The notes under the pieces: generated by a model | Database searches by the model: none | What the model saw: only the letters and a program-made list of their open reading frames with translations | Told to the model about the DNA's origin: nothing | Program-made: the position numbers and the translations under genes | Part shown: piece after piece, positions 672 to 49,357 of the stretch | Numbering within the stretch: position 1 is the stretch's first letter | How the letters are laid out: every line of letters begins with the position of its first letter | Virus record (IMG/VR): IMGVR_UViG_3300022750_000017 | Coordinates: 1 to 49,357 of that record | DNA length: 49,357 nucleotides | Direction: 5' to 3' (one strand) | Origin: a virus

Positions 672-700
672 AAACGCAGAGATTAAGGAGAGATAGAATT

Positions 701-1362: not shown

Positions 1363-1373
1363 GGAGAATGATC

Positions 1374-3366: not shown

Positions 3367-3401
3367 CTATGCCGGTGGAGACTGAGGCTAGGTGTAGCGG
3401 A

Positions 3402-3430
3402 TTGACCGCAAGCGTGTGACGGGCGATTAT
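3402..3430 (+). promoter_or_regulatory. Promoter upstream of the methyltransferase
   Basis: TTGACC (3402-3407), a 17-base spacer and GATTAT (3425-3430) precede the methyltransferase. Allele B has TTGACG, 17 bases and GATTAT at 46655-46683 although the downstream gene is different and most of the spacer has diverged. Conservation of just these boxes supports a real promoter that would also feed the primase. Confidence 0.5.
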
Positions 3431-3456
3431 ACTAGTCCGGATTTGGAGGGAATGGC

Positions 3457-4282: not shown

Positions 4283-4300
4283 CACCTAGGCCCCCATGTC

Positions 4301-6841
4301 ATGCCCAATTTTGAGCCTGCTCTGCTTGAGCAGATAAAATCGCTTGTCCCTATTTCTAAGCTAGTGGGTGAGTATGTTGCTGCCGCGCCTAAGTCATCGC
4401 CGGGGGATTTGTGGGCATGTTGCGTGTTCCACAGCGAAAAGACGCCTTCGTTCCATGCGGAGGACGCAAAGGGTATTTACCATTGCTTTGGCTGTGGTGC
4501 GACAGGCGACCATTTTCAATGGGTGCAGGAGCATCAGGGAATGTCGTTTACGCAAGCCGTGGAGGCCGTCGCCGATCGTGCTGGGGTCTCACTGCCCGGA
4601 AAGCGCTCAGAACCGTCAGCGGCCAAGCCACGTGCCCGCTATGATGCTCCTAAGATCGTTGACCCATACGAGGGTTATGAGTTCTTACCGGTGCCAGCGG
4701 GTACGCCGCCTATTGTTCCCGGCCAACGTACGCCGGAACTGCGCAACCCTAAGAAAGCGGGCACCGACAAGTTTACCACGCACTACAAGCCATCGGCTGT
4801 GCATGCCTATCAAAACGCCGCTGGCGAACTGCTAGGCTACGTTCTGCTAGTCGAGTTCAAAGATGGCAAGTCAACGCCTGGAATTTGGTGGGCGCGTGGA
4901 CCGGATGGCTTTGAGGGGTGGTGTCACGGATCGATTGATAACTGCCCACTGTATGGCCTGCCGGAGCTACTGGCGCATCCTGATAAACAGGTGCTTGTAG
5001 TGGAGGGTGAGAAGTGCCGTAGAGCGGCAGACAAGGCGCTACAGGGCCGCGTGGTTGTCGTTAGCTGGTGCGGTGGCACAAACCGCGTTGATCGGTCTGA
5101 CTGGTCGCCGCTGGCGGGGCGCAGTGTCATCTGGTGGGCTGATAATGACGAAGAAGGCCGTAAGGCCATGGCTGAGGCACGCAGCCTAGCCAAATCTGCC
5201 AAGAACAAGCGCGTCACCCCTTACGGGGATAAAGGCGGCGACGTTGCCGACCTGATCTTAGCCGGTGGCTCGGTTGCAGATTATATCAAGGCTAATATCA
5301 GTGAGTGGCCTATTGAGGCTGAGAAGGAGAATGAGGATGAGTCTGTATTGGAAGTTGCTAGTGGTTTGCGTGGTTCTGACGGGGTTCGTGAATTCGGTAA
5401 ACAATCTGGAAAAGAGCCGCAGACTGGACCGACTGGAGCAGATCGTCCTATCTCTCAGCGAAAGCCGCTAAATGCTACTCCTCGCAGCCCTTCTCCTCTC
5501 CCTAGCCCTGAACCTGATGCAACGCCTAAAGATCATATCCCTCCAACACAAAGTGTGGGTGGCGGGGGTCGAGAAGCGATTGTGGTTGAGGAAACGATAG
5601 ATTGGGAAGGCACGTTAGATAGGACCGACAAAGCCACACTGACGCTCAACAGCCTGCACAACTCAGTTGTCATCTTGCAGTATCACAGCGATTTCAAGGG
5701 CGTTTATGCGTACAACGAATTTGCGCAGGAAATATCTCTACTCACAAAACCGCCGTATGATCCTCCTAACAGGCCGTTCAAGCCCCGGCTATTGACAGAA
5801 ATCGATGTTATCGCCAATGCTGCGTACATGGAAACGATGGGTGAATATAAGCTAAAGCCTAAAGTGAACGATATGATATTGGCTATTAAGCGTGTTGCTG
5901 ATTTCAACAGGTTTAACCCTGTTAGAGATGCGCTAGACGCTTTGGAGTGGGACGGTCTACCGCGCCTGCAAGGTGGAACAGTTGGCAAGCGCTTGTTCAA
6001 AAGCTTTGCAGTTCGTTATCTCGGCGCTGAGGATACACCTATCAATGCTGCTTTCGTCAAGCGCAGCCTGATATCGGCTATTGCCAGAGCGTACAAACCC
6101 GGCTGTAAAGTTGATACCATGCTTGTGTTAGAAGGCGGGCAAGGCAAATTCAAATCTACCAGCCTTAACGTCCTCGCTGACGCTATCGCACCCGGTCTTT
6201 TCACGGATGAAATGAGCGATCCAGGCTCCAAGGACGCTGGTCTGCAGATGCAGGGCCGATGGATCATTGAGATTTCAGAACTTGATGCATTCCGTAAATC
6301 CGATGTATCAACCCTCAAGGCATGGTTAGCCCGTAAAGAGGATCGGTTCCGCAGGCCTTATGGTAAGAACGTCGAGGATTTCCCGCGCTCGTGCATTATG
6401 ATCGGAACCGTCAACCCGCCTGAGAGTGGTTATCTACGCGACCCGACCGGCGCTCGTCGGTGGTGGCCTATTCGATGCGGTGAATTTGATCTGCCGTTAC
6501 TCAAAGAGGATGCCCGTCAAATATGGGCTGAGGCACGTCACCTGTATATGGCCGGAGAACAATGGCACCTAACAGATGAGGAGGAGGAACAAGCTAAGGT
6601 TGTGCAGCAAGCCCGTTATGAGCATGATCCTTGGGCTACATTGATCAGTGACTATCTGGCTAGACACACCGACGCAGTTAAAAGTACAGTAAAGCTCATC
6701 GATCTTATGGGGGATATGTGCCTACGCATTCCACCCGAACGCCGAACGCCGCTGCAGAACGCTCGTATTGAGGCGCATCTAAATATGATTGGCTGGCGAA
6801 AATTAGATAGCGGGACGTATCGAAGGGGCTTGACGCCCTAA
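4301..6841 (+). CDS. Primase-helicase: CHC2 zinc finger, Toprim, VirE/VapE domain (allele A)
   Basis: The 846-residue replication protein has an N-terminal CHC2 zinc finger (C41, H44, C62, C65), which binds template DNA, then a Toprim primase domain from about residue 228 (LVVEGEKCRRAADKAL, later WWADNDEEG). A low-complexity linker (about 335-425) follows, then a VirE/VapE P-loop ATPase (LEGGQGKFKST at about 608-618, later TVNPP and GARRWWPI). It would make primers and unwind DNA at the fork. The allele B copy (46924-49311) is 51 residues shorter because of the linker. The linker DNA carries two nested ORFs at 5337-5600. The third residue of motif GKFKS is typical of this phage family. Confidence 0.93.
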   Translation: MPNFEPALLEQIKSLVPISKLVGEYVAAAPKSSPGDLWACCVFHSEKTPSFHAEDAKGIYHCFGCGATGDHFQWVQEHQGMSFTQAVEAVADRAGVSLPGKRSEPSAAKPRARYDAPKIVDPYEGYEFLPVPAGTPPIVPGQRTPELRNPKKAGTDKFTTHYKPSAVHAYQNAAGELLGYVLLVEFKDGKSTPGIWWARGPDGFEGWCHGSIDNCPLYGLPELLAHPDKQVLVVEGEKCRRAADKALQGRVVVVSWCGGTNRVDRSDWSPLAGRSVIWWADNDEEGRKAMAEARSLAKSAKNKRVTPYGDKGGDVADLILAGGSVADYIKANISEWPIEAEKENEDESVLEVASGLRGSDGVREFGKQSGKEPQTGPTGADRPISQRKPLNATPRSPSPLPSPEPDATPKDHIPPTQSVGGGGREAIVVEETIDWEGTLDRTDKATLTLNSLHNSVVILQYHSDFKGVYAYNEFAQEISLLTKPPYDPPNRPFKPRLLTEIDVIANAAYMETMGEYKLKPKVNDMILAIKRVADFNRFNPVRDALDALEWDGLPRLQGGTVGKRLFKSFAVRYLGAEDTPINAAFVKRSLISAIARAYKPGCKVDTMLVLEGGQGKFKSTSLNVLADAIAPGLFTDEMSDPGSKDAGLQMQGRWIIEISELDAFRKSDVSTLKAWLARKEDRFRRPYGKNVEDFPRSCIMIGTVNPPESGYLRDPTGARRWWPIRCGEFDLPLLKEDARQIWAEARHLYMAGEQWHLTDEEEEQAKVVQQARYEHDPWATLISDYLARHTDAVKSTVKLIDLMGDMCLRIPPERRTPLQNARIEAHLNMIGWRKLDSGTYRRGLTP
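5337..5471 (+). CDS. Nested small membrane protein inside primase linker (allele A only)
   Basis: This 44-residue ORF lies in the +1 frame of the primase. It starts at ATG 5337 with AAGGAG seven bases upstream. The product has an N-terminal membrane helix (YWKLLVVCVVLTGFV, about residues 4-18) and a charged amphipathic tail (NLEKSRRLDRLEQIVLSLSE). It sits in a roughly 150-base segment absent from allele B, where the primase frame reads as an odd linker. It ends TAA directly before ATG 5472. Function unknown; the topology resembles an inner-membrane spanin or small toxin, but nothing specific identifies it. Confidence 0.5.
   Translation: MSLYWKLLVVCVVLTGFVNSVNNLEKSRRLDRLEQIVLSLSESR
5472..5600 (+). 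CDS. Nested small membrane protein inside primase linker (allele A)
   Basis: The 42-residue ORF in the +1 frame begins on the ATG directly after the TAA of the upstream nested ORF and stops at TAG 5598-5600. It has a hydrophobic N-terminus (MLLLAALLLSLALNLM) and a basic tail (QRLKIISLQHKVWVAGVE, ending RKR). Allele B keeps it at 47933-48070. In the shared part four of five changed codons are silent here, while all five affected primase codons change amino acid. After the TAG the changes are silent for the primase. This is direct evidence that this frame is under selection. Confidence 0.65.
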   Translation: MLLLAALLLSLALNLMQRLKIISLQHKVWVAGVEKRLWLRKR

Positions 6842-6857
6842 CCCCCGCATGTATTAT
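6830..6857 (+). promoter_or_regulatory. Promoter at end of primase gene
   Basis: TTGACG (6830-6835) and TATTAT (6852-6857) are separated by 16 bases; the -35 overlaps the last codons of the primase. Both boxes are also in allele B (49300-49327). It faces two hairpins and a terminator, then the tRNA genes. It may drive a short RNA or the tRNAs. Confidence 0.5.
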
Positions 6858-6863
6858 GCAGTT

Positions 6864-6935
6864 GTGTTCGCGGCTCCCCTGCCGCTTGAGCCTTAAGGGC
6901 CACCGGTGTTCCTCCCACTGGTGGCCCTATTTTAT
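6864..6935 (+). ncRNA. Candidate short RNA ending at an intrinsic terminator
   Basis: A transcript from the promoter at 6830-6857 would start near 6864, pass a small GC hairpin (arms 6870-6874 and 6881-6885) and reach the terminator at 6897-6935, making an RNA of about 70 bases without an ORF. The proposal rests only on promoter and terminator spacing. The alternative is that the terminator simply ends the primase operon. Confidence 0.3.
6897..6935 (+). terminator. Intrinsic terminator after primase operon
   Basis: The arms GGGCCACCGG (6897-6906) and CTGGTGGCCC (6918-6927) form an eight- to ten-pair stem, followed by TATTTTAT. It closes the rightward replication operon just before the tRNA genes. 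Confidence 0.7.
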
Positions 6936-6951
6936 GAGAGGGTACAGAATC

Positions 6952-7021
6952 GCGGGTCCGTCAGGGACGAGTAGAGCCTTCCAAGCTCTTGAGGTGAGTT
7001 CAAGTCTCACGACCCGCTCCA
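6952..7021 (+). tRNA. tRNA-Gly (anticodon TCC) with reduced D arm
   Basis: The acceptor stem is perfect (GCGGGTC 6952-6958 with GACCCGC 7011-7017) and is followed by T and an encoded CCA (7019-7021). The anticodon stem AGAGC/GCTCT carries the loop CTTCCAA with TCC at 6980-6982, and the T arm GTGAG-TTCAAGT-CTCAC is canonical. The D region is only 14 bases and folds as CGTC-AGG-GACG, much smaller than usual. Gly is the best assignment. Confidence 0.75.
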
Positions 7022-7100
7022 GCCTTGGTAGCTCAATGGTAGAGCAGACGCAGCCTTAGGGTTGCGCAAGATGACGGGTTCGATTCCCTCCCAGGAGCCA
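7022..7100 (+). tRNA. Degenerate tRNA-like gene, anticodon uncertain
   Basis: It begins right after the CCA of the tRNA-Gly. The D arm (TAGCTCAATGGTAGAGCA) and T loop (TTCGATT) are textbook, and CCA is encoded at 7098-7100. The acceptor stem pairs only with a bulge, the T stem has two mismatches, and the best anticodon stem (7049-7053 with 7062-7066) leaves an eight-base loop around TTAGG; UAG (Leu) is possible. It may be a decaying tRNA or one with base errors. Confidence 0.5.
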
Positions 7101-7101
7101 A

Positions 7102-7428
7102 CTAACCCTCCAACACCTCCATAGCCCCTTCCACACTATCAGCCCACCCAATGCGCAGCGCAGGGCAGCTAACCCGCGCAGCGTCCATCCAAGCGGCTTG
7201 GTGAGGCTTAGGGCGCTTCCCAGGCACCTTGACCTCTATGGCGGCGAACTCTCCCTTAGCGGTCCATCCAATAAGATCGGGCGCGCCAACTCCTCCAACA
7301 CCGTAGGCCACAGAGTAAGAACGCCCGCCACGTGAGTAGCGGGCAATTCCCTGAGCGTTTATGAACATGCGGTGTCCTCTGGCACTAGCCTCAGTTAGGA
7401 TGGCTTGGACCAACTGGCTTTCACTCAC
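7102..7428 (-). CDS. VRR-NUC family nuclease
   Basis: The 108-residue protein has the compact VRR-NUC fold of the PD-(D/E)xK nucleases: an N-terminal ESQLVQAIL helix, GxGAPDLIGWT with the metal-binding Asp, AIEVKVPGKRPKPHQ supplying the E-x-K and Gln, then a C-terminal helix. These stand-alone phage enzymes are thought to cut DNA flaps or junctions. I prefer GTG 7428, overlapping the upstream stop (GTGAGTGA); ATG 7455 has no ribosome site. It is the last gene of the leftward early operon. Confidence 0.85.
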   Translation of the reverse strand: MSESQLVQAILTEASARGHRMFINAQGIARYSRGGRSYSVAYGVGGVGAPDLIGWTAKGEFAAIEVKVPGKRPKPHQAAWMDAARVSCPALRIGWADSVEGAMEVLEG

Positions 7429-7654
7429 CGCTCCACCCCATTTTCCGCAGACCATGCAAAATAGACGACCGATGCCGACCCAGAACAGCGCCGATCTGAG
7501 TTGAGTTCAACTTTGTCTCGTGTGCGATACGCCATGCAATCTCATGCCGCGCTGCGACTAGCGGTCGATACCGCTTACGGCTCAGGACTTCGGCTTTGAA
7601 CACGCGGCGAGATTTGCAGACCTCATCAATTATGGTGGACCACTTAGCTGCCAT
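7421..7654 (-). CDS. DnaA domain IV-like helix-turn-helix protein
   Basis: The 77-residue protein carries the pattern ARHEIAWRIAHET followed by STQIGAVLGRHRSSILHGL, which is the layout of the DNA-binding domain IV of DnaA (helix, then QIGxxLGxxxxxxVLH). No ATPase domain is present. It might mark the phage or host origin, or compete with DnaA at its boxes; both are inference. Its start overlaps the upstream stop by TAATG. Confidence 0.75.
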   Translation of the reverse strand: MAAKWSTIIDEVCKSRRVFKAEVLSRKRYRPLVAARHEIAWRIAHETKLNSTQIGAVLGRHRSSILHGLRKMGWSGE

Positions 7655-8256
7655 TACGCTGCAAGCCTCTGCAGAACTTCTTTCCAGCCTGCTTGAAATT
7701 TCTCGTAAAAGTATTGGCGTCTGTCATTGTCGTTCATACTCCAACATGGATGTACCCGATAGCTGACCGTATCGTTCCGGTGCGGATCACAGCCCATATC
7801 TGTCAGAATATCTCGCACCGCCTGAACCTTCATCTTGAGCAAGTTAGCGATATCCGTTGAACTTGTTCCATTGTCGTAACGCTTACGAATGGAAGTCTTG
7901 GTGCAAAACTGAGGGTAACGCCCCTTTGGTCGAAACGTCTTTGGCCCACGTAGCATGCCCATACGGCGAATTTTGCTCATGATAGAGCTACGAGGCCGCT
8001 TTAGCTTAATAGAGCAAACATAACTAGTCTCTCCGCCCATCCATAGCTCTCGTAATTTGTCCTCCTCAGCAGCGGTCCAGTCCGTCCCGCCGATGCGCGG
8101 GCGCACGATTGAGATACGCCCCTCACGCCGCAGCAGTTCGATCTTTGAGCCAATGCTACTCATGCTCCTGCCGATATGCTGAGCAATTATTTGGTTAGTC
8201 GTGCCCTTGGCGTACATGCGCAATAGCAGGTCGGTTTCGGATTCAGACCATTTCAT
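7654..8256 (-). CDS. DNA-binding protein with GcrA/Myb-like repeats
   Basis: The 200-residue protein has two similar N-terminal repeats: WSESETDLLLRMYAKG (about residues 3-45) and WTAAEEDKLRELWMGG (about 60-105), each followed by an IGxSxSSIxSKI-type recognition helix. A third helix-turn-helix (STDIANLLKMKVQAVRDIL) lies near 145. This resembles GcrA, an alphaproteobacterial cell-cycle regulator. Start ATG 8256 overlaps the upstream TAA (TAATG) and has GGAGG in front. Probable transcription regulator. Confidence 0.7.
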   Translation of the reverse strand: MKWSESETDLLLRMYAKGTTNQIIAQHIGRSMSSIGSKIELLRREGRISIVRPRIGGTDWTAAEEDKLRELWMGGETSYVCSIKLKRPRSSIMSKIRRMGMLRGPKTFRPKGRYPQFCTKTSIRKRYDNGTSSTDIANLLKMKVQAVRDILTDMGCDPHRNDTVSYRVHPCWSMNDNDRRQYFYEKFQAGWKEVLQRLAA

Positions 8257-10471: not shown

Positions 10472-10750
10472 CTATGTTGCGCGCCAGTCAACACTAACAT
10501 GTCCGCAGCAGGAACATTTGTGTTCAAGGTGCTGCCACATCTCTTTATCGATGTCGTTTTCGACAGCCCATCCCATTAGCAGATCGTTATGCTGAATTGG
10601 AATGCAGCCCGCAGCTACCCACCGAGTCACGCGGGATGGATGAACCTTTGTCAGACGCGCTAACGCAGCGTTATTGCCGCTCAGCTTATTGCCTTGGTAC
10701 TTTTCGTTCTTGCTGCCAACCAACGCCGCAATTTGCTCAACTTTATTCAT
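10472..10750 (-). CDS. Cro-like helix-turn-helix protein with Cys tail
   Basis: The 92-residue protein has a helix-turn-helix (NNAALARLTKVHPSRVTRWV, about residues 26-45) of the type found in small Cro/YdaS regulators, and a C-terminal HKCSCCGHVS cluster that could bind zinc. It may regulate the divergent early promoters at 12289-12392. ATGA overlap with the upstream gene. Confidence 0.7.
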   Translation of the reverse strand: MNKVEQIAALVGSKNEKYQGNKLSGNNAALARLTKVHPSRVTRWVAAGCIPIQHNDLLMGWAVENDIDKEMWQHLEHKCSCCGHVSVDWRAT

Positions 10751-10977
10751 GCCTTAACCCTCCCAATAATCTCAACGCCAACCATTTCAGCCATACTTTC
10801 CAGAATATCAAACCGCATGGCGCGTTCACCCCTGACGTAACCCCGGAATGTCTCGCTGTCACAAGGTACGGCCTCGCATAGTCTTTCAGTCGGTAGCTGC
10901 ATAGCGTTTTTTGCCTTGATGATTTCCACCATGATGGGGTGGGTTTTGGGGGTTGGGCGGGTGGGTTTATATGTCAT
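10747..10977 (-). CDS. XRE-like small DNA-binding protein
   Basis: The 76-residue product is mostly one helix-turn-helix: LPTERLCEAVPCDSETFRGYV then ERAMRFDILESMAEMVGVEI, in the order expected for XRE-type regulators. It is encoded just upstream of the Cro-like gene and may be its partner. The early control target is not known. Confidence 0.65.
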   Translation of the reverse strand: MTYKPTRPTPKTHPIMVEIIKAKNAMQLPTERLCEAVPCDSETFRGYVRGERAMRFDILESMAEMVGVEIIGRVKA

Positions 10978-37734: not shown

Positions 37735-37756
37735 TTACCTTACCTCTCTGATCGGC

Positions 37757-37797
37757 AAAAGCAAGAAAGAAGCCCCGCCATTGCTGACAGGGCTTCT
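37757..37797 (-). terminator. Intrinsic terminator after tRNA-like cluster
   Basis: Arms at 37797-37790 and 37775-37768 (AGAAGCCC with GGGCTTCT) form a perfect eight-pair stem with a 14-base loop. On the minus strand it is followed by TTCTTGCTTTT. It would end transcripts from the tRNA-like genes and terminase operon. Confidence 0.6.
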
Positions 37798-37850
37798 TAA
37801 TTAACCTAGATCGTGGCTGGCCATGTCACAGCCCTTTGGACTCAATCTAG

Positions 37851-37927
37851 TTACCGGGGCAGGTTGCTAATCCTGCCGACCTCCGCCGTGTAAGGGCGGT
37901 ACTCTGTAGCATGTGAGCTACCGGAAA
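37851..37927 (-). tRNA. tRNA-Val-like (anticodon TAC) with non-canonical D and T loops
   Basis: On the minus strand: acceptor TTTCCGG/CCGGTAA (one mismatch), TA at positions 8-9, D stem GCTC/GAGT, a perfect anticodon stem CCGCC/GGCGG with loop CTTACAC (anticodon at 37892-37890), variable loop AGGTC and a GC-rich T stem GGCAGG/CCTGCC. The D loop (ACATGCTACA) lacks GG and the T loop (ATTAGCAA) lacks TTC; instead they contain TGCTA and TAGCA, which are exact complements. CCA is not encoded. Confidence 0.6.
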
Positions 37928-38042
37928 GCTTTGCGGCTCGCCTAACCATTACCCTCGAATACTACTAGTGGGGCAGGGACAACATGGCTGGCTGAGATTT
38001 CGGCTACATCCGCTTCGCCTTGAGGAAAGCCCCGTGTTAGTA
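37928..38042. other. Structured non-coding spacer between tRNA-like genes
   Basis: No gene is seen here. Several inverted repeats occur: GGGGC with GCCCC (near 37970-38034), a TGGCTGA/TTCGGCTA hairpin around 37985-38004, and CTAAC with GTTAG at the ends. The size would hold another tRNA, but I could not build convincing anticodon and T arms. It may be a decayed tRNA. Confidence 0.35.
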
Positions 38043-38150
38043 TTGCACGTAAGGGATTTGAACCCTTGGAGGCCGACATCAAACGGCCCATTGCGGCCTT
38101 TGTCAACCCCTATAGCAATGTCACCAATAGCCCACTCTGGCAACGCGCAA
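38043..38150 (-). tRNA. 108-base class II tRNA-like gene with enlarged anticodon arm
   Basis: On the minus strand: acceptor TTGCGCG/CGTGCAA (seven pairs, one G-T), TT, a Ser/Leu-like D arm (GCCAGAGTGG then GGT), a six-pair anticodon stem CATTGC/GCAATG, a variable-arm stem GGCCG/CGGCC and a canonical T arm AAGGG-TTCAAAT-CCCTT. The anticodon loop would be 20 bases instead of seven, so no anticodon can be named. No CCA is encoded. It might be an intron-like or expanded tRNA, or a pseudogene. Confidence 0.5.
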
Positions 38151-38157
38151 TTAGGTG

Positions 38158-40981: not shown

Positions 40982-41452
40982 TTATGAGTTAGCGAGTGCT
41001 GCGGCTGCAACTGCTGCGTCTCGCTGTTCCTTGGTCATAACTTCGATTGAACCGCTATGAACCGTTTCCACCTTATCGCGCCACTGAACGGGCCTGCGGT
41101 TCTTGAGCCAGAAAATGGCAGCTGTCGTGTCTGTTGGAGCATACCTTCTCACCTCCACAACCTCGATACGCTCCTCAGTTGCGCTGAGCTTAACCTTGAA
41201 TGCCTGCTCCTCGACGTACTCAAAGCCAGTAGCCTTTTGGAACAATCCACGCTCAACCCTGGCGTCAGCTTCCTCCTTACCGGCCTTTAGGGCCTGACAA
41301 AAGTCTTCGTGATCTAACTTCCAACGATAGACCGTCCGAGTGGACACGCAAAAGAAATCGGCTATCTCGCTATCGGTCGCGCCAAGTCGGCAAAGCTTCT
41401 CAGCTTGCTGCACATAATCGTCGCTGTACTCGGTAGGTCTGCCGGTAGTCAT
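40982..41452 (-). CDS. terS: Terminase small subunit
   Basis: The 156-residue protein has an N-terminal helix-turn-helix (GATDSEIADFFCVSTRTVYR, about 24-43), a central oligomerisation helix (ALKAGKEEADARVERGLFQK) and the C-terminal AIFWLKNRRPVQWRDK typical of this family. It recognises the packaging start site and feeds DNA to the large subunit. It is the first leftward late gene, downstream of the mirrored promoter. Confidence 0.9.
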   Translation of the reverse strand: MTTGRPTEYSDDYVQQAEKLCRLGATDSEIADFFCVSTRTVYRWKLDHEDFCQALKAGKEEADARVERGLFQKATGFEYVEEQAFKVKLSATEERIEVVEVRRYAPTDTTAAIFWLKNRRPVQWRDKVETVHSGSIEVMTKEQRDAAVAAAALANS

Positions 41453-41585
41453 GGTTGTCCTCTTACCCCCAAATACCTAGCACGTTGCATGGCTCTGCGC
41501 AAGGGCCGTCGCGTAAAGCGGGCAGCGATAGCTAGTCGGGTCTATCGCTCACTCAGACCAAATGGGTTCATCGTAATTTGGCGAT
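41453..41585. other. Leader of the leftward late operon
   Basis: No convincing gene is seen in these bases. They would be the untranslated leader of transcripts that start near 41592 and run left into the small terminase gene. A short inverted repeat near 41521-41560 (GCGATAGCT and GGTCTATCGC) could fold in the RNA. Confidence 0.35.
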
Positions 41586-41737
41586 ACAGTTCTACTCCTT
41601 ACTATAAACCCCCATTAAACTCATAAGGAAGTTATATTCTAATACATTAGACGGCCTATTGCATTGTACGGTCATATGGGTTAGAATATGAGTTGTACTT
41701 ATATTTAGTGGGAGTATATAGTAAGGTTCAGAACTGT
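41586..41737. promoter_or_regulatory. Mirrored pair of divergent promoters
   Basis: Two 57-base units face away from each other (plus 41681-41737, minus 41642-41586). Both begin TTAGAATAT, have TATAGTAAGG exactly 36 bases after the unit's start and then AGAACTGT three bases later; 41 of 57 bases match. TATAGT would be the -10 of each, with starts near 41730 and 41592. There is no good -35, so an activator at TTAGAATAT is plausible. They would drive the late operon to the left and the replication operon to the right. Confidence 0.6.
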
Positions 41738-41782
41738 TAAAATCTGGAAATTATCTATATAATTCAAAGGAAACAGATTATC

Positions 41783-42283
41783 TTGCAAAACTCCAAAATC
41801 CCAGCCGGAAGACCGAGATCGGCGGCTCTGCAACATTTATCAAACCTAGCTGCAGCTAACTCTGATGAGTGCCAGTGGCCGCTTAACGATCAAAAAAACA
41901 TAATTTGGATCACAGGGTCACGAACACCACGATATATTTCATGCACAATCGTTAACGGAACTGCTCCTGATGGAATGGTCCCTGTGCAGATTTGTGGTGT
42001 TTTGGGATGCGTAAATGGCCGTCATTGGCGGTGGGGAACTATGGAAGAATCCCTAAAAAATCGAAGATTTAAAGACAGGAAAGGCGGTCTAAATCCTAAT
42101 TCAAAACTCAATTGGGAGTACGTCCGAGCAATCCGTGCAATCAAATGGGAAGGTGGCGACCACCGGATGAGGGTAGCTGCAAGCTACGGAATTAGTTTGC
42201 GCACACTTAACGCAGTCATAAAAAACTGGATTTGGAAAGCCGAAGATATGCCATCTGTAGCCTGTGAAGGGGATGAATTTTGA
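41783..42283 (+). CDS. Degenerate HNH-like protein, TTG start
   Basis: The 166-residue protein has an HNH-like core, QICGVLGCVNGRHWRWGTME, followed by KGGLNPNSKLNWEYVRAIRA and a helix-turn-helix end, as in phage HNH proteins. The first catalytic His (usually in xHLCG) is Gln and the NP of NPxH is NG, so cutting may be lost. Start TTG 41783 is 12 bases after AAAGGA. The gene is more AT-rich than its neighbours, which suggests transfer. Confidence 0.65.
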   Translation: MQNSKIPAGRPRSAALQHLSNLAAANSDECQWPLNDQKNIIWITGSRTPRYISCTIVNGTAPDGMVPVQICGVLGCVNGRHWRWGTMEESLKNRRFKDRKGGLNPNSKLNWEYVRAIRAIKWEGGDHRMRVAASYGISLRTLNAVIKNWIWKAEDMPSVACEGDEF

Positions 42284-42815: not shown

Positions 42816-43120
42816 CCAACAAAAACCTAATCGAGCGGCTTAGAAAGTCATCCCGCCATTTCTACTGGGATGTCGAAACTGAAAAAGAGATTGTCTTTCC
42901 AAAGCCCTTTAACCGGGATGGGAACGAAGCCGCCGCGCTGATCGAACAACAGGAGGCGGTTATTACAAGTCAGACCGATTGCATCGCAGCTTTATCCAAA
43001 GCCCTTACCGCGATGCTTCCTGAGCATAATACGCATGAACAGCATTTAAGGCCCGACTTTGAGACATGCGAACAGGCTAGATTATTCCTCCTCGCAGCCA
43101 AAACCCATTTGGGAGAGTGA
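42812..43120 (+). CDS. Small helical protein, 102 aa
   Basis: Start ATG 42812 overlaps the previous stop. The protein (MTNKNLIERLRKSSRHFYWD) contains NEAAALIEQQEAVITSQTDC, a coiled-coil-like layout seen in ea-type phage proteins. Function unknown. Confidence 0.75.
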   Translation: MTNKNLIERLRKSSRHFYWDVETEKEIVFPKPFNRDGNEAAALIEQQEAVITSQTDCIAALSKALTAMLPEHNTHEQHLRPDFETCEQARLFLLAAKTHLGE

Positions 43121-43121
43121 G

Positions 43122-43295
43122 ATGGCTAAACATCGATACTACCTGGAGGATGGCATGGGAATTATCTCTATCCAAACGCGCAAGACCAAGCCTACCATGG
43201 GAAAGGTCATTACAGCTGATGGAGAAAAATGGCAGGTCTGGTACATCGAGTGGATGGGTGACGACTGCAATGCTCGGTGTGAGCGGGTTAAATGA
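43122..43295 (+). CDS. Small beta-rich protein, 57 aa
   Basis: ATG 43122 follows the upstream stop with GGGAGAGTGAG in front. The protein (MAKHRYYLEDGMGIISIQTR) has VITADGEKWQVWYIEWMGDD and a short Cys/Arg tail. Its stop overlaps the next ATG. Unknown function. Confidence 0.65.
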   Translation: MAKHRYYLEDGMGIISIQTRKTKPTMGKVITADGEKWQVWYIEWMGDDCNARCERVK

Positions 43296-43474
43296 AAGTC
43301 CCCATCACCGACCAAATCACCGAAGCCCGCCGCTGGCTGAGTGTGCTGCCTGCGGGTCCGAGGCGGGATGCGTGTGAGGGGGTGGTGCTGACGTTGGAGT
43401 TTATGAAAACCTACAGAGACGAGTTCTACGAGTTTATGGCTGAAGGAGCAAGAAATGACCGGAGCCAGCGTTAA
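43292..43474 (+). CDS. Small conserved protein (allele B)
   Basis: The 60-residue protein (MKVPITDQITEARRWLSVLP) is the allele B version of the TTG-started gene at 189-362; here the start is ATG. Only the last few residues differ clearly. It overlaps the following gene by 20 bases. Confidence 0.8.
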   Translation: MKVPITDQITEARRWLSVLPAGPRRDACEGVVLTLEFMKTYRDEFYEFMAEGARNDRSQR

Positions 43475-43757
43475 AATAACAAACACAGAGACGGGCGAAA
43501 GCCGCATTTACCTCGATGAATATTTCGACGGCGAAACGGGCGTTTGGGCATACGAGGACGGCAATCAATCCTGCGATTGCAACCGTAGCCTGTATTTCGA
43601 ATATGCTCACGGCATAAGCCCGCAAGACGCGGATATGGCAGAATGCTCAACTGTAGGAAATGTCTACCGTATTGATAGCATTTTTTGGGATGGCCGGTTT
43701 TGGATGTCTGAGCTAAAGCCCAACATTACCCTTGACACTCCCGCAACAGCAATCTAA
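43455..43757 (+). CDS. Hypothetical protein, 100 aa
   Basis: ATG 43455 follows AAGGAG. The protein (MTGASVKITNTETGESRIYL) has acidic and aromatic strands with CDC (CDCNRSLYFEYAHG) and ends within the promoter at 43732. It replaces the Cys-rich protein of allele A at the same place. Function unknown. Confidence 0.75.
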   Translation: MTGASVKITNTETGESRIYLDEYFDGETGVWAYEDGNQSCDCNRSLYFEYAHGISPQDADMAECSTVGNVYRIDSIFWDGRFWMSELKPNITLDTPATAI

Positions 43758-43760
43758 AAC
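43732..43760 (+). promoter_or_regulatory. Sigma70-type promoter (allele B)
   Basis: TTGACA (43732-43737), 17 bases, TAAAAC (43755-43760), matching the element at 643-671. AAGGAG and ATG 43789 follow. Confidence 0.6.
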
Positions 43761-43788
43761 AAACGCAGAGATTAAGGAGAGATAGAGA

Positions 43789-44007
43789 ATGTACGCAGAC
43801 CTCCCGCCAAGAACGCCAGAACAAGAACGCCAATACCAAGTTTATCTCGTGCATAAAGAGAAGCAGGATAAAATTGATGCTCTACGTAACGCCGCGCCTG
43901 ACCTACTGGAAGCGCTTCTAGACGCGAAGTATGCGTTGTACGGCAACGGTCCGGCTAACCCCAAGATGCTTGCAGCAATCTCTAAGGCTCAGGGGGAGCG
44001 CAAATGA
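43789..44007 (+). CDS. Small helical protein, 72 aa
   Basis: The protein (MYADLPPRTPEQERQYQVYL) contains LRNAAPDLLEALLDAKYALY, a motif typical of small phage proteins of unknown role. It is inserted here relative to allele A. ATGA overlap with the next gene. Confidence 0.75.
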   Translation: MYADLPPRTPEQERQYQVYLVHKEKQDKIDALRNAAPDLLEALLDAKYALYGNGPANPKMLAAISKAQGERK

Positions 44008-44489
44008 CCACCCACAGCGCCACTCTTAAAAAGATCAACCTCGCCGGTGTCGTTGAATACGCTCCACGCATTCACATCAATGATGTCGAATATCAGCGCG
44101 TCGGTGTTCCTAGTGCGTTTAACTGGACCCCCGCCATGTCCGCCGTATTCCCGGTGCGGCTTACGATGTCGCAGCTTACCGCGATGTGGGATGCTTTGCA
44201 TGGTGCGGCTGAGTATGAGGAGCTTGGTTCTAAATCCGTCTGCGCTTGGCCGGATTGCACGTGTCCAACTGAGTCTTATTGCAAGCCTTCCGTTCCAAAG
44301 CCTCTTGCTGAGGAAAAGCCTAACGCTGACGGTTGGATTATTTGGTATATTGGTTACGCAGTGCCAAAGGGTCTCGTTGATGTTCGCACTGTAAGTAAGG
44401 GAGATTTTCTTGGCGTCTCTAGCTCTGGCATCGAGTGGTCTGCTATGGATAGCGGATATAGCATAACGCACTGGCGTCCCGCCAAATGA
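44004..44489 (+). CDS. Phage protein with WTPxMSAVFPVRL core (allele B)
   Basis: The 161-residue protein shares only its middle (WTPAMSAVFPVRLTMSQLTA) with 701-1165. The N-terminus differs, and after a Cys-containing insert (CAWPDCTCPTESYC) the C-terminal part (DGWIIWYIGYAVPKG) is a diverged version of the GWxEW module. This shows recombination within the gene. Function unknown. Confidence 0.8.
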   Translation: MTTHSATLKKINLAGVVEYAPRIHINDVEYQRVGVPSAFNWTPAMSAVFPVRLTMSQLTAMWDALHGAAEYEELGSKSVCAWPDCTCPTESYCKPSVPKPLAEEKPNADGWIIWYIGYAVPKGLVDVRTVSKGDFLGVSSSGIEWSAMDSGYSITHWRPAK

Positions 44490-44686
44490 CCACTCTCCAC
44501 ATCATTCGCGACGACGAACCAATCCTAGTCCACCTAGACTGGCAAAGCTGCGATGACCAAATCTGGGGCTTAACAGCCCACACCCGCACCGGCCTCGCCA
44601 TCCCCCTATCCCCCACCGAAGAAAACGACGCTCTAGAGAAAATCTACTCTGAGATGCCTTCGGTTAATTATTATGAGCTTTATTGA
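44486..44686 (+). CDS. Small acidic conserved protein (allele B)
   Basis: The 66-residue protein is almost identical to that at 1162-1362, with only a few changes (for example GLTAH for GVTAH). ATGA overlap with the upstream gene. Confidence 0.85.
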   Translation: MTTLHIIRDDEPILVHLDWQSCDDQIWGLTAHTRTGLAIPLSPTEENDALEKIYSEMPSVNYYELY

Positions 44687-44696
44687 GGATAATGAG

Positions 44697-45104
44697 ATGA
44701 TCGTAGAAGTTGGCGAATTTTACAAGACTCGTGATGGCCGGAAGGTTGGACCTATGAAAATTTGGGGTTCTGCGACAGACGCCGATACTGGCGATGTTCT
44801 ATTCGATACGATGGCCGAAGGTTTTACATCGTATTGTTGGCGTAAGAGCGGTGAAAATGGGGATAGCCAAGTAGAGGGTTTTGATTACCTAGACCTCGTA
44901 GCCCTCTGGCAAGAACCCACCTCTCAAGGCCCCGTCCGCACCAAGACTGTGAAAGAGGTGGTGCCTGGTAACTACGGGATCGTATTTGTGCGCAAGCTGT
45001 CACGTGGAGCCGAGATTGGCATTCAAGGCCACTTCCATACTGCCACCGAACTCCGCGCCGCCGCAGCTACCCTACTCGAAATTGCAGAGGCTTTGGAAGA
45101 ATGA
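44697..45104 (+). CDS. Conserved phage protein, exchanged N-terminal domain (allele B)
   Basis: ATG 44697 gives 135 residues (MIVEVGEFYKTRDGRKVGPM). The C-terminal half (PTSQGPVRTKTVKEVVPG, then TELRAAAATLLEIAEAL) matches 1374-1760, but the first half is unrelated, another sign of domain swapping. An ATG at 44673 lies inside the upstream gene and lacks a ribosome site. Function unknown. Confidence 0.75.
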   Translation: MIVEVGEFYKTRDGRKVGPMKIWGSATDADTGDVLFDTMAEGFTSYCWRKSGENGDSQVEGFDYLDLVALWQEPTSQGPVRTKTVKEVVPGNYGIVFVRKLSRGAEIGIQGHFHTATELRAAAATLLEIAEALEE

Positions 45105-45361
45105 CCTACGGAAACGACTACCGAAACCAACTAACCGACTACAGCAACGCCGAAACCGAATACGCCAAGGCGCAACGTGAGGCTCGTGAGAAGGGCCATA
45201 AAGCCGCGCAACGTATCGCTGCCCTTATCTATGCTGATCTTGACGTAGAGGTCACACCGGAAGCCATTCAACGCTTTGTTAAGGGTCGGTGGGCTAAGTT
45301 AGCACCATTGGCGCATCTGGTTCACGAAGCGCCGGATACAACGAAAGGCACAGTCAAATGA
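45101..45361 (+). CDS. Small charged protein, 86 aa
   Basis: The protein (MTYGNDYRNQLTDYSNAETE) is helical and rich in charged residues, ending HLVHEAPDTTKGTVK. Allele A has a membrane protein and a 61-residue gene here instead. ATGA overlaps on both sides. Confidence 0.75.
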   Translation: MTYGNDYRNQLTDYSNAETEYAKAQREAREKGHKAAQRIAALIYADLDVEVTPEAIQRFVKGRWAKLAPLAHLVHEAPDTTKGTVK

Positions 45362-45459
45362 CCCTAACCCACCACCCCATTTCCACAGCCCTTGCCATCC
45401 TCGCTGTCGTTTGGGTTCTGACGATGGACAACGGCCTGCTCAGTATGTGGGGTTTGTGA
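45358..45459 (+). CDS. Tiny membrane protein, 33 aa (allele B)
   Basis: ATG 45358 to TGA 45457-45459. It is the counterpart of 2141-2245 with the same hydrophobic core (ISTALAILAVVWVLTM) and mostly silent base differences. Its TGA overlaps the next ATG (TGATG). Confidence 0.75.
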   Translation: MTLTHHPISTALAILAVVWVLTMDNGLLSMWGL

Positions 45460-45650
45460 TGGCAGAACTCCAAGTCAACACCGCCCAACAGCGCGCCCAC
45501 TATCGCGGCTTCACCATTGAGGAGTCTATTGATGGGTGGGAATGGTGCCACAAAGATTACAGCGAGAACGGTATTTCAGGGATATGCGACACGATTTTCG
45601 ATGCCATCGACGCAGTTGATAAATGGTGGGAGAACGGCGATGAGCATTAG
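45459..45650 (+). CDS. Small acidic protein, 63 aa
   Basis: ATG 45459 overlaps the previous stop. The protein (MAELQVNTAQQRAHYRGFTI) continues EESIDGWEWCHKDYSENGIS and ends DAVDKWWENGDEH. It has no counterpart in allele A. Unknown function. Confidence 0.75.
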   Translation: MAELQVNTAQQRAHYRGFTIEESIDGWEWCHKDYSENGISGICDTIFDAIDAVDKWWENGDEH

Positions 45651-45903
45651 CCCCCTATCGCTGAAATATCGCTGGCGCGTAGGCGTTGGCCTAGAAGCGG
45701 CGCTATCCGAGGATATCGAAACCTACGGCGACGGTCACGATTGGATGTACCGCGCCTCTCGCGTCCCAAGCGTACAGTCTATGTTTGCAACGCCAGGAGA
45801 GGCTGAGTGTGCTATCGCCGCTAGGGACGAGGCCGTGAGCGCGGCTGAGGCGGAAATGGTTGGTGTGGTTGCTGTTACGGAGGGCTATGATGCAAGACGA
45901 TGA
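45640..45903 (+). CDS. Small conserved protein (allele B)
   Basis: ATG 45640 gives 87 residues (MSISPLSLKYRWRVGVGLEA), homologous to the GTG-started gene at 2230-2502, including AARDEAVSAAEAEMVGVVAV. It overlaps both neighbours. Confidence 0.8.
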   Translation: MSISPLSLKYRWRVGVGLEAALSEDIETYGDGHDWMYRASRVPSVQSMFATPGEAECAIAARDEAVSAAEAEMVGVVAVTEGYDARR

Positions 45904-46114
45904 AAGCTTTACCTTGGTATTTGAAGGTAACATTAGGCGTTTCGAGAAAAATCCCTTGCGGATTGAAACAGAATTTGGAACTCCCTACGCCGTGGGTGTC
46001 GGTGATGCTTTTGCAAAAGAAGATGCTCTAATCGAGTTGATGGAACGAGCTTTTACTTGCCTTGAAAACGATGATGTTGAAGGCGCAATGCAAGCGCTTA
46101 AGGAGCAGCTATGA
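45890..46114 (+). CDS. Small hypothetical protein, 74 aa
   Basis: Start ATG 45890 (after GGAGGG) gives MQDDESFTLVFEGNIRRFEK; ATG 45887 is just upstream. The protein ends DDVEGAMQALKEQL. Present only in allele B. Function unknown. Confidence 0.7.
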   Translation: MQDDESFTLVFEGNIRRFEKNPLRIETEFGTPYAVGVGDAFAKEDALIELMERAFTCLENDDVEGAMQALKEQL

Positions 46115-46311
46115 CCGTCAACGCCCGCTCTCTGCTAGACGAATGTGCCGACGCCATTTTCCTAAGCCGGAGCCCTGCCGCAGAGGCGCAAGCTGAGGCT
46201 GTATTGGCCGTAATTCGTCGTCGCGGCCTCTTAAATGACGCTGGCGTAGCTCTATGCCGTGCTGAACTAGGGCCGCTGTCTGTGGCTGTGATTAAGGAGA
46301 ATATGGGATGA
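46111..46311 (+). CDS. Small conserved protein (allele B)
   Basis: The 66-residue protein (MTVNARSLLDECADAIFLSR) is the counterpart of 2487-2711, with the identical end CRAELGPLSVAVIKENMG. ATGA overlaps. Confidence 0.8.
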   Translation: MTVNARSLLDECADAIFLSRSPAAEAQAEAVLAVIRRRGLLNDAGVALCRAELGPLSVAVIKENMG

Positions 46312-46658
46312 GTAACTTTCGGGTTGGGCAGAAGGTGGTTTGTGTAAACTCAAAAAACACTCCCGGGAAAAGTTGGTATGGCGATGTTCCGGTTGTTGGA
46401 CAAACTTATACCATCGAAGATGTTTTCATTGGGCCGATAACTGGCACAATTTCACTTCTGCTTGAGGAAATAAAGCGATCAGAATGGGAACGTGAAAGTA
46501 TTGGGGTCGATAAATTAGGGTATCATGCATGGCGCTTTCGGCCTGTTATCAGCCAGGCCGACGACATCGCCCTTTTCCACGCACTCTGCCCCGGCCTTCC
46601 TGTCGTTCCACCAGCGGTAGTGCCTCCGCGTGTACCGGTGACTAGCCATAGCGATTGA
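46308..46658 (+). CDS. Phage protein, SH3-like (allele B)
   Basis: The 116-residue protein (MSNFRVGQKVVCVNSKNTPG) is homologous to 2708-3052, with the shared end DIALFHALCPGLPVVPPAV. Its VGQKVVCV start and TYTIEDVF strand suggest a small beta barrel. Function unknown. Confidence 0.8.
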   Translation: MSNFRVGQKVVCVNSKNTPGKSWYGDVPVVGQTYTIEDVFIGPITGTISLLLEEIKRSEWERESIGVDKLGYHAWRFRPVISQADDIALFHALCPGLPVVPPAVVPPRVPVTSHSD

Positions 46659-46683
46659 CGAATAGCAGGCGGCGGGCGATTAT
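46655..46683 (+). promoter_or_regulatory. Promoter before the primase gene (allele B)
   Basis: TTGACG (46655-46660), 17 bases, GATTAT (46678-46683), the counterpart of 3402-3430. GGAGGG and the gene at 46712 follow. Confidence 0.5.
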
Positions 46684-46711
46684 AGGCGTCCGAATTTAGG
46701 AGGGAAATGAG

Positions 46712-46912
46712 ATGAGTGAATGGGTTATGCATGACGGGTGGTCAGACCCGAAAGTCTCTGGCGACACTCTCGTGGAGGTGAGATACCGAGACGGGAGAAT
46801 TGATAAAGGCGTCATGCATGATTGGGACCAAGCGTGGCAGTGGAATGGCAGCGAAGAGGGTGAAACCTCAGGCGGCGCTATTGTTGAATATCGCGTAATC
46901 CCTAACCTCTAG
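46712..46912 (+). CDS. Small GWxEW-module protein replacing the methyltransferase
   Basis: The 66-residue protein (MSEWVMHDGWSDPKVSGDTL) has VEVRYRDGRIDKG and ends GGAIVEYRVIPNL, the same plan as the C-terminal module of 701-1165. It sits where allele A has the methyltransferase, between the shared promoter and the primase. Function unknown. Confidence 0.75.
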   Translation: MSEWVMHDGWSDPKVSGDTLVEVRYRDGRIDKGVMHDWDQAWQWNGSEEGETSGGAIVEYRVIPNL

Positions 46913-46923
46913 GCCCCCATGTC

Positions 46924-49311
46924 ATGCCCAATTTTGAGCCTGCTCTACTTGAGCAGATAAAATCGCTCGTCCCAATTTCAAAACTTGTTGGTGAGTATGT
47001 TGCTGCCGCGCCTAAGTCATCGCTGGGTGATCTATGGGGGCTGTGTCCAGTTCACGGCGAAAAGACACCTAGCTTCCATGCGGAGGACGCTAAAGGCTTA
47101 GCGCATTGCTTCGGCTGTGGATTCAATGAGGACCATTTTGGCTTCCTTGAGAAAGTAGCAGGAATGACCTTCCCGCAGGCCGTGGAGGCTGTTGCCGACC
47201 GTGCTGGCGTCACATTGCCCGGAAAGCGCTCAGAGCCGTCAGCGGCCAAGCCGCGCGCTAAGTATGAGGCTCCTAAGATCGTTGACCCATACGATGGTTA
47301 TGAGTTTGTACCAGTGCCATCTGGTACACCTCCTATTGTTCCCGGCCAACGAACACCAGAACTGCGCAACCCTAAGAAAGCGGGAACCGACAAATTCACA
47401 ACGCACTACAAGCCATCGGCTGTGCATGCCTATGAGAACGCTGCGGGGGAACTGCTAGGCTACGTTCTGCTGGTCGAGTTCAAGGACGGCAAGTCAACGC
47501 CTGGGATTTGGTGGGCGTGCGGGCCGGATGGCTTTGAGGGTTGGTGCCACGGTTCGATTGATAACTGCCCACTGTATGGCCTGCCGGAGCTACTGGCGCA
47601 TCCTGATAAACAGGTGCTTGTAGTGGAGGGTGAGAAGTGCCGTCGAGCCGCAGACAAGGCGCTACAGGGCCGCGTGGTCGTCGTTAGCTGGTGTGGTGGA
47701 ACAAACCGCGTAGATCGGTCTGATTGGTCACCGCTGGCTGGGCGTTCGGTGATCTGGTGGCCTGACAATGATGACGAGGGGCGCAAAGCTATGGCTGAGG
47801 CACGCAGCCTAGCCAAATCTGCCAAGAATAAGCGTGTGGCTGAGTACGGCGACAAAGGCGGCGACGTTGCCGACCTGATCTTAGCCGGTGGGTCGGTCGC
47901 GGATTATATCAAGGCTAACATAAGTGAGTGGAATGATGACGCTAACCCTGAGCCTACTGCTGACAGCGAGCCTAGCCCTGAACCTAGCCCAGCGCCTAAA
48001 GATCATATCCCTCCAACACAAAGTGTGGGTGGCAGGGGTCGAGAAGCGGTTGTGGTTGAGGAAACGATAGATTGGGAAGGCACGCTAGATAGGACAGACA
48101 AGGCCACATTGACGCTCAACAGCCTGCACAACTCGGTCGTCATTCTGCAGTATCATGCAGATTTTAAAGGCGTTTATGCGTACAACGAATTTGCGCAGGA
48201 AATCTCTCTGCTTAGGAAGCCGCCGTATGACCCACCCAATAGGCCGTTCAAGCCACGGCTTTTGACGGAAATCGACGTTATCGCCAATGCTGCATACATG
48301 GAAACGATGGGTGAATATAAGCTAAAGCCTAAAGTTAATGACATGATTTTGGCTATTAAGCGTGTTGCTGACTTCAACAGGTTTAACCCTGTTAGGGATG
48401 CGCTAGACGCTTTGGAGTGGGATGGTCTACCGAGATTGCAAGGCGGAACAGTTGGCAAGCGCGTGTTCAAGAGCTTTGCAGTTCGTTATCTCGGTGCTGA
48501 GGATACGCCAATCAATGCTGCTTTCGTCAAGCGCAGCCTGATTTCTGCTATTGCCCGAGCATACAAACCCGGCTGCAAAGTTGATACCATGCTTGTGTTA
48601 GAAGGCGGGCAAGGTAAGTTCAAATCTACCAGCCTTAACGTTCTCGCTGACGCTATCGCACCCGGTCTTTTCACGGATGAAATGAGCGACCCAGGCTCTA
48701 AGGACGCTGGTCTGCAGATGCAAGGCCGGTGGATCATTGAGATTTCTGAGCTTGATGCTTTCCGTAAATCCGATGTGTCAACTCTCAAGGCATGGTTAGC
48801 CCGTAAAGAGGATAGGTTTCGTAGGCCGTATGGTAAGAACGTCGAGGACTTCCCGCGCTCGTGCATTATGATCGGAACCGTCAACCCGCCTGAGAGTGGT
48901 TATCTGCGCGACCCGACTGGCGCTCGTCGGTGGTGGCCTATTCGGTGCGGCGAGTTTGATTTGCCGTTGCTCAAAGAGGATGCGCGGCAAATATGGGCTG
49001 AGGCACGTCACCTGTATATGGCTGGCGAACAATGGCATCTAACAGATGAGGAGGAGGAACAAGCTAAGGTTGTGCAGCAAGCGCGATATGAGCATGATCC
49101 TTGGGCGACATTGATCAGTGATTATCTGGCTAGACACACCGACGCAGTTAAAAGCACAGTTAAGCTCATAGATCTTATGGGGGATATGTGCCTACGCATC
49201 CCGCCCGAACGCCGAACGCCGCTGCAGAACGCTCGTATTGAGGCGCACCTAAATATGATTGGCTGGCGAAAATTAGATAGCGGGACGTATCGAAGGGGCT
49301 TGACGCCCTAA
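46924..49311 (+). CDS. Primase-helicase: CHC2, Toprim, VirE/VapE (allele B)
   Basis: The 795-residue counterpart of 4301-6841 has zinc-finger residues C41, H44, C62 and C65, a Toprim core (LVVEGEKCRRAADKAL) and the VirE ATPase (LEGGQGKFKST). The zinc-finger region differs most (LCPVHGEKTPSF, then FGFLEKVAGMTF), and the linker is 51 residues shorter (PEPTADSEPSPEPSPAPKD). The ATPase half is almost the same protein, with mainly silent base changes. Confidence 0.93.
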   Translation: MPNFEPALLEQIKSLVPISKLVGEYVAAAPKSSLGDLWGLCPVHGEKTPSFHAEDAKGLAHCFGCGFNEDHFGFLEKVAGMTFPQAVEAVADRAGVTLPGKRSEPSAAKPRAKYEAPKIVDPYDGYEFVPVPSGTPPIVPGQRTPELRNPKKAGTDKFTTHYKPSAVHAYENAAGELLGYVLLVEFKDGKSTPGIWWACGPDGFEGWCHGSIDNCPLYGLPELLAHPDKQVLVVEGEKCRRAADKALQGRVVVVSWCGGTNRVDRSDWSPLAGRSVIWWPDNDDEGRKAMAEARSLAKSAKNKRVAEYGDKGGDVADLILAGGSVADYIKANISEWNDDANPEPTADSEPSPEPSPAPKDHIPPTQSVGGRGREAVVVEETIDWEGTLDRTDKATLTLNSLHNSVVILQYHADFKGVYAYNEFAQEISLLRKPPYDPPNRPFKPRLLTEIDVIANAAYMETMGEYKLKPKVNDMILAIKRVADFNRFNPVRDALDALEWDGLPRLQGGTVGKRVFKSFAVRYLGAEDTPINAAFVKRSLISAIARAYKPGCKVDTMLVLEGGQGKFKSTSLNVLADAIAPGLFTDEMSDPGSKDAGLQMQGRWIIEISELDAFRKSDVSTLKAWLARKEDRFRRPYGKNVEDFPRSCIMIGTVNPPESGYLRDPTGARRWWPIRCGEFDLPLLKEDARQIWAEARHLYMAGEQWHLTDEEEEQAKVVQQARYEHDPWATLISDYLARHTDAVKSTVKLIDLMGDMCLRIPPERRTPLQNARIEAHLNMIGWRKLDSGTYRRGLTP
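47933..48070 (+). CDS. Nested small membrane protein inside primase linker (allele B)
   Basis: In the +1 frame, ATG 47933 (or 47936) to TAG 48068-48070 encodes 45 residues: MMTLTLSLLLTASLALNLA, then the same basic tail as 5472-5600 (QRLKIISLQHKVWVAGVE to RKR). The tail is identical at the protein level although the DNA differs. A single membrane helix with a positive C-terminal tail is predicted. No strong ribosome site is seen (GTGAG). Function unknown. Confidence 0.6.
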   Translation: MMTLTLSLLLTASLALNLAQRLKIISLQHKVWVAGVEKRLWLRKR

Positions 49312-49357
49312 CCCCCGCATGTATTATGCAGTTGTGTTCGCGGCTCCCCTGCCGCTT
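49249..49357 (+). repeat. 109-base exact repeat of 6779-6887
   Basis: The last 109 bases repeat 6779-6887 without a difference; the first mismatch upstream is at 49248 versus 6778. The repeat runs flush to the window's end. This is the pattern of a contig closing on itself through a shared stretch. Confidence 0.9.
49300..49327 (+). promoter_or_regulatory. Promoter at end of primase gene (allele B)
   Basis: TTGACG and TATTAT with a 16-base spacer, identical to 6830-6857. The window ends 30 bases later, in the first hairpin. Confidence 0.45.

Follow-up and report, generated by a model that had tools for sequence, protein, structure and literature searches.

A dyad-symmetric element of constant place and changing sequence between divergent late and replication operons in a group of related phages

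Introduction

In phage phi29, the A2c/A2b-A3 control region combines early promoters with a divergent late promoter, and inverted-repeat sites for protein p4 serve to switch both. In the cited sections, these sites are described as 27-bp inverted repeats (6-15-6), four of them in two regions (PMC3100819). The locus described here was found in the window, the whole 49,357-nucleotide stretch of viral record IMGVR_UViG_3300022750_000017. It resembles the phi29 region, so far as those sections describe it, as an intergenic, putative control region of early and late blocks with inverted symmetry. It differs in being a single 152-bp dyad rather than four 27-bp sites. By this analogy, the nearest functional counterpart of the element would be a two-sided operator in a divergent switch.

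Opposed binding sites are also described beside terS. In the cited part of work on lambda-like phages, the R2 site has the orientation opposite to that of R3 and R1; cosQ and cosN are common to lambda and phage 21, whose cosB R sites differ together with the recognition helix of TerS (PMC4669245). As in that description, opposed sites here lie beside terS, would vary with their binder and have a fixed neighbouring block. However, the conserved block here spans two TerL families, the dyad lies beyond this block from terS, and none of four contigs ends in the gap.

For T4 I-TevI, the cited text describes a homing endonuclease that bound upstream of its own gene as a repressor (PMC2988022). The likeness, within that account, is a homing-endonuclease-type protein with a candidate operator upstream of its own gene. 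I-TevI is, however, a GIY-YIG enzyme that still cleaves its homing site, whereas the putative binder here is HNH-derived with changed motif residues. Finally, heteroimmune temperate phages carry operators that agree within one phage and differ between related phages. The dyad follows the same rule as these lambdoid immunity operators, but here there is no integrase or recognised repressor, and a single dyad occupies a single place.

Results

Position and geometry of the dyad

The gap at 41453-41782 has terS (minus strand) on one side and an HNH-like gene (plus strand) on the other. The main features are as follows.

40982..41452, minus strand: terS, first gene of the leftward late block (phrog_309, E=4.6e-55).
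41586..41642, minus strand: left arm, toward terS; 41/57 identical to the right arm, sequence related to the left arms of relatives L020 and L019.
41643..41680, no strand: dyad centre, symmetry weaker, around TGCA at 41660-41663 (gapped self-alignment).
41681..41737, plus strand: right arm, toward the HNH-like gene; no detectable similarity to the right arms of relatives.
41783..42283, plus strand: gene of an HNH-derived protein, candidate arm binder, first of the rightward operon (phrog_1872 endonuclease, E=7.9e-06).

The leftward late genes are terS, terL and structural genes, and the rightward operon consists of closely packed plus-strand ORFs, the last encoding a CHC2/VapE primase-helicase. 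A divergent early/late arrangement is present, with the terS block on the minus strand and the HNH-to-primase block on the plus strand. This gene order bears out the preliminary description, which had placed the element between leftward late and rightward replication gene sets. In the packed late block, 423 bases (37735-38157) have no called gene; one 64-aa ORF (37949-38143) lies there on the late strand.

An ungapped alignment of the two units (41642->41586, minus strand; 41681->41737, plus strand) has 41 identities in 57 positions. Both contain TTAGAATAT, TATAGTAAGG and AGAACTGT in identical form and at the same spacing, and TTTARTGGGRGT, between exact blocks, is likewise preserved except at two positions. 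At outer spans of up to 400 bp, the window contained 22 inverted placements with at least 36/57 identities, all of them shifts of the same dyad. Neither 30 dinucleotide shuffles of the window as a whole (best 38) nor 2000 of the 330-bp gap (best 34) reached 41 identities at spans of up to 300 bp. The earlier observation of opposed 57-base units with 41 matches and equally spaced exact blocks was thereby confirmed beyond what shuffling yields.

A gapped self-alignment gave 110 identical columns of 156, with symmetry continuous across the centre. Because the gapped symmetry crosses the centre, the element is a single 152-bp imperfect dyad centred at 41661/41662 and not two separate units. With a matrix built from both copies, these were the only two copies of the unit in the window (79 bits each; next site 11 bits). 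Since the unit is absent near other operons, it would, if an operator, serve this place only.

Searches of the element gave only two 23-25-base matches (E=4) among phage sequences and none among plasmids. In the literature, no paper was recognised by its title as describing such an element. The pattern TATAGTAAGGNNNAGAACTGT was also tried in viral contigs; its three matches, of nearly common sequence and without a relative of the five window proteins tried, were judged to be chance.

Dyads in related genomes

Searches with TerL and VapE identified close IMG/VR relatives, namely L019 and L020 (TerL 98%) and L030 (VapE 94%). The comparison covers the four known genomes, that is, these three and the window; L019 and L020 are fragments. 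When a pattern from the conserved block was searched in viral contigs, it matched only L019, L020 and L030, even when relaxed. The divergent arrangement of terS and the HNH-like gene was present in all three relatives, and the conserved blocks of the gap are the following.

41461..41510, minus strand: core A, just upstream of terS; 50/50 in L030, 44/45 in L019, 41/44 in L020.
41567..41586, no strand: core C, bordering the left arm; 19/20 in L030, 16/16 in L020, 15/19 in L019.

Core A contains no recognised gene and is fully retained in L030 despite the other TerL family of that genome; it could be a late promoter or a recombination boundary.

From core C to the HNH-like gene, the sequences have diverged among the genomes, yet each has its own dyad. 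The best inverted repeat with a span of 90-170 bp starts at base 1, 7, 1 and 18 past core C in the window, L020, L019 and L030, respectively, as measured from a hand-set end of core C with the variable part alone scanned. In the same order, it ends 45, 59, 61 and 65 bp before the start codon of the right gene. The score was reached by 0 (window), 0 (L020), 0 (L019) and 4 (L030) of 300 shuffles, none at the matching place. The gapped symmetry of the whole gap was reached by 0, 1, 0 and 242 of 1000 shuffles, again in that order. A scan for inverted repeats of 24/34 gave two matches in the window, one each at the gap in L019 and L020, and no match in L030. The L030 dyad is therefore weak, given both the 242 shuffles and the lack of a 24/34 match. 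Three genomes thus have a firm dyad of constant place and changing sequence, and that of L030 is weak.

The presence of different dyads at the same place in three relatives shows that the element is not a simple recent inverted duplication, a conclusion that the preliminary description had also drawn. Fifteen other relatives were excluded from the comparison, and the ORF lists of 12 of them gave no sign of this divergent gap; the 24/34 scan found two matches in L024, one in L009 and none in the other 13.

Co-variation of the two arms

The local scores between the left and right arms of the same genome were 61 (window), 37 (L019), 32 (L020) and 24 (L030). Cross-genome left-right pairings (12) scored 12-23, and right-right pairs (6) scored 12-17. 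The null, taken from shuffled halves of the window and L020, was 15.2 +- 2.9 with a 99th percentile of 24, a value that the L030 arms merely equal. By these scores, the right arms have no detectable likeness between genomes, and each resembles its own left arm.

Left-left scores were 51 (window-L020), 29 (window-L019) and 28 (L019-L020), or 56, 29 and 28 with slightly longer left arms, and pairs with L030 scored 14-18. This relationship among left arms means that descent alone accounts for part of the pattern on the left side, which may be under additional constraint or may reflect mere common descent. Among 24 pairings, the within-genome pairing had the top total (154; next 125), a result to be read with caution, as the arm limits had been chosen from the self-alignments. 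The proposal that TTAGAATAT is a paired recognition element did not hold across the group: both arms carry it in the window, only the left arm does in L019, and in L020 it is exact in neither arm.

DNA or RNA, and promoters

Mismatches that would be G-U in RNA numbered 5/6 in the window, 7/5 in L019, 5/2 in L020 and 5/14 in L030 (plus/minus strand). No common strand lean was observed, so action as duplex DNA is favoured over action as RNA. The L030 mismatches lean to the minus strand without explanation, and the dyad register there is loose.

An RNA element was considered and rejected. On either strand, folding of the 152 nt is strong (z -8.4 and -6.1; another run -7.8), which is expected of any long dyad, and the G-U lean was not common to the genomes. 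Of three Rfam matches with E values up to 1, the strongest (MIR4372, E=0.004) reached 29.7 bits, far under its cut-off of 100. Folding of the terS leader alone was no better than that of shuffles (z 0.16). Readings as a MITE, attC or protelomerase site were set aside on inspection by eye.

A sigma-70-type scan of the gaps found 1 (window), 0 (L030), 0 (L019) and 1 (L020) sites, with 0.8, 0.3, 0.8 and 0.7 expected. The Caulobacter RpoD consensus is given in the cited section as TTGaCgS and GCtANAWC (PMC8144410), and a scan of this type yielded four sites at 10/14 or better, with 5.9 expected from shuffles. An 11/14 match directly before the HNH-like gene is the best in L019 and one of the two best in L020. 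Neither of the two 11/14 matches of L030 directly precedes this gene, the window has none, and such matches were no commoner than in shuffles. Another possible promoter element was read from the sequence of the window and was not among the sites of the sigma-70-type scan.

41758..41763, plus strand: TATAAT, possible -10 of a rightward promoter, just outside the right arm.

In core A, the pattern TTGCG-N15-TGCTA (41502->41478), directed toward terS, occurs once in the window, where 0.54 are expected by chance; a late promoter in core A is thus a suggestion only. These matches suggest at most that promoters of host type lie beyond the dyad and that the arms serve as operators. The preliminary description had regarded the repeated blocks as a promoter motif for a phage regulator or modified polymerase, a reading that is not supported, as the window has no third copy of the unit and the consensus scans were at chance level.

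Discussion

Proposed role of the element

We propose a control function for the 152-bp dyad, placed as it is between divergent operons: its arms would be paired operators that co-evolve with a diversifying phage DNA-binding protein. We give this reading an even chance. A phage-encoded protein, probably dimeric or oligomeric, would bind the same site array on each arm. Its binding would couple the leftward late and rightward early/replication operons through occlusion, activation or an inter-arm loop. As the binder diversified between related phages, both arms would follow, and the symmetry would be kept while the sequence turned over. The binding protein, the effect on transcription and the direction of regulation are elements that we infer.

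If this reading is right, the locus is a compact case of one phage DNA site of fixed architecture whose sequence turns over in step on both arms. The four natural variants would then allow the co-evolution of regulator and operator (or of TerS and its site) to be tested by swaps of arms and proteins.

Candidate binding proteins

The preliminary description had named a GcrA-like protein (7654-8256) and a Cro-like protein (10472-10750) as regulators. Their L030 counterparts are 96% and 97% identical, and the arms of that genome are unrelated. The GcrA match is also under the Pfam cut-off (20.6 vs 26.9 bits). The helicase is also retained in L030 (96%). Since these three proteins are nearly unchanged while the arms differ, they are unlikely binders; the choice of regulator is corrected accordingly, as the two seemingly obvious proteins are near-constant where the site is unrecognisable. 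Over columns 500-847 of the VapE alignment, L030 and the two window copies agree at 98-100%. With the L030 arms unrelated, this constancy argues that this part of VapE is not the binder either.

The HNH-derived protein lies beside the element and is homologous in all four genomes, with pairwise identities of 36-75%. In these genomes, the first His of the motif is replaced by Q/Q/R/N, the CDN Asn by V, and the later Asn by S/S/A/M; these residues belong to the motif of active relatives, in which some of them are presumably catalytic. The NP.H His is retained in the group. As a single query, the HNH-like protein matched nothing in viral contigs, and a four-member query found 29 loci, three of which are the group itself. 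Of the 26 loci outside the group, 11 were aligned, and all six motif-carrying relatives among them keep the first His and both Asn.

The C-terminal half of the protein is preserved, including the NPN.KL...GI...TL..I region. Helices were predicted there at 111-118, 125-134 and 139-148 (pLDDT 68-83) in a model of low overall confidence (mean pLDDT 52.6). HTH_23 was matched only under its cut-off (13.5 vs 24.6 bits), and a PDB profile search with the protein found nothing. Over six non-independent pairs, identity of the HNH-derived proteins showed no significant correlation with left-arm scores (Spearman 0.6, p 0.21). For right-arm scores, which do not rise above noise, the coefficient was 0.88 (p 0.02).

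From its position and sequence, the HNH-derived protein (41783-42283) is the most likely binder, perhaps an autoregulator, and we treat it as the leading candidate only. A more specific scenario appears doubtful to us. In it, a protein derived from an HNH homing endonuclease would have lost its nuclease centre and been domesticated as the early/late switch of this phage group. At the divergent promoters, it would drive a mirrored pair of operators to co-evolve rapidly, so that each phage would have a regulatory specificity of its own.

Alternative explanations

The strongest rival is a packaging recognition site, in which TerS would bind the two opposed arms as at cosB of lambda-like phages, with core A as cutting region or neutral leader. 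It ranks first because cosB has the same logic: the cited part of PMC4669245 describes a conserved block together with co-varying inverted sites. The dyad adjoins terS, and it is terS that varies strongly within the group. Compared with TerS of the window, that of L020 shares only a 27-residue C-terminal tail, that of L019 matches over residues 67-156 (45%), and that of L030 is 28% identical over 143 residues. As TerS also differs among the four genomes, packaging fits part of the pattern. On the other hand, core A is identical at 50/50 positions in L030, which has a Terminase_3 TerL (vs Terminase_6) and an Sf6-type TerS, and a block that is identical across TerL families is hardly a terminase site. 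The left arms of the window and L020 are clearly related (51-56) though their TerS proteins share the tail only. Seen from terS, the dyad lies past core A, unlike the order of the sites in lambda. None of the four contigs ends in the gap, though cellular concatemers could hide ends, and the overlapping ends of the L030 record are outside the gap. We consider this explanation unlikely.

A replication origin, with paired iteron-like arms that flank or form an AT-rich region of strand opening, to which an initiator of the phage itself would bind, seems to us rather improbable. GC content is 28-37% per step across the dyad region and 48-62% in core A and the terS leader; the AT-rich dyad heads the operon that ends in the CHC2/VapE primase-helicase. 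The cumulative GC-skew minimum of one genome unit is at ~41.9 kb (500-base bins), but the direction of the genes, with which skew also changes sign, switches exactly at the dyad. The constancy of VapE columns 500-847 beside unrelated L030 arms counts against this part of VapE as the binder, and no other initiator was recognised in the subset of window proteins scanned.

The dyad could also be a mutational by-product, a quasi-palindrome whose arms are rewritten from each other by repeated template switching without selection. The arms do match patchily and follow each other within one genome. However, the dyad is retained at the same place in four diverged genomes, and the unrelated arms of L030 would require a fresh palindrome at the same site. 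The best-matching outer parts are separated by 84 bp (window) and 95 bp (L030), distances that are far for hairpin-templated correction. There is little chance that this explanation is right.

Immunity operators of a lysogeny repressor are the least probable reading and quite remote. In its favour are the heteroimmune-like agreement within a phage and difference between relatives, and a small gene at 10747-10977 that resembles a repressor weakly (phrog_2328, E=0.0067) and has no match in L030. Against it, neither an integrase (PF00589; control found in 14/14) nor an HTH_3 (PF01381) over cut-off was found in the four records, of which L019 and L020 are fragments. Near the small HTH genes, the unit is only weakly resembled: a site at 10104 scores 13.2 bits, where the true blocks score 31.5, and one at 10737 scores 7.7 bits, where they score 50.0.

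Additional observations

The replication module is present twice in the window, at 1-6887 and ~43104-49357; the copies have diverged (aligned pieces 74-94% identical), share their orientation and lie ~42.5 kb apart. The ends of the L030 record overlap by 139 bp at 97%, which indicates that this record is near a full circle of about 42.4-42.5 kb. Given the two module copies at this distance and the similar size of L030, the window contig probably covers more than one turn and joins two strains. Its two primase-helicase copies (4301-6841 and 46924-49311) have their lowest identity at about columns 300-400 (40%; 79-100% elsewhere), where L030 agrees with the second copy (97%).

The TerS proteins (window 40982-41452, L019 3933-4202, L020 1449-1748, L030 3382-3771) differ strongly upstream of a C-terminal tail of 17 residues that the window, L019 and L020 have in common. 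The L030 TerL belongs to another family, yet its first 12 residues and its tail are common with the L019 TerL. In a further relative, L023, an 805-aa TerL frame (4882-7299) carries an in-frame insert of ~310 residues with a LAGLIDADG_3 match (E 2.9e-09), likely an intein.
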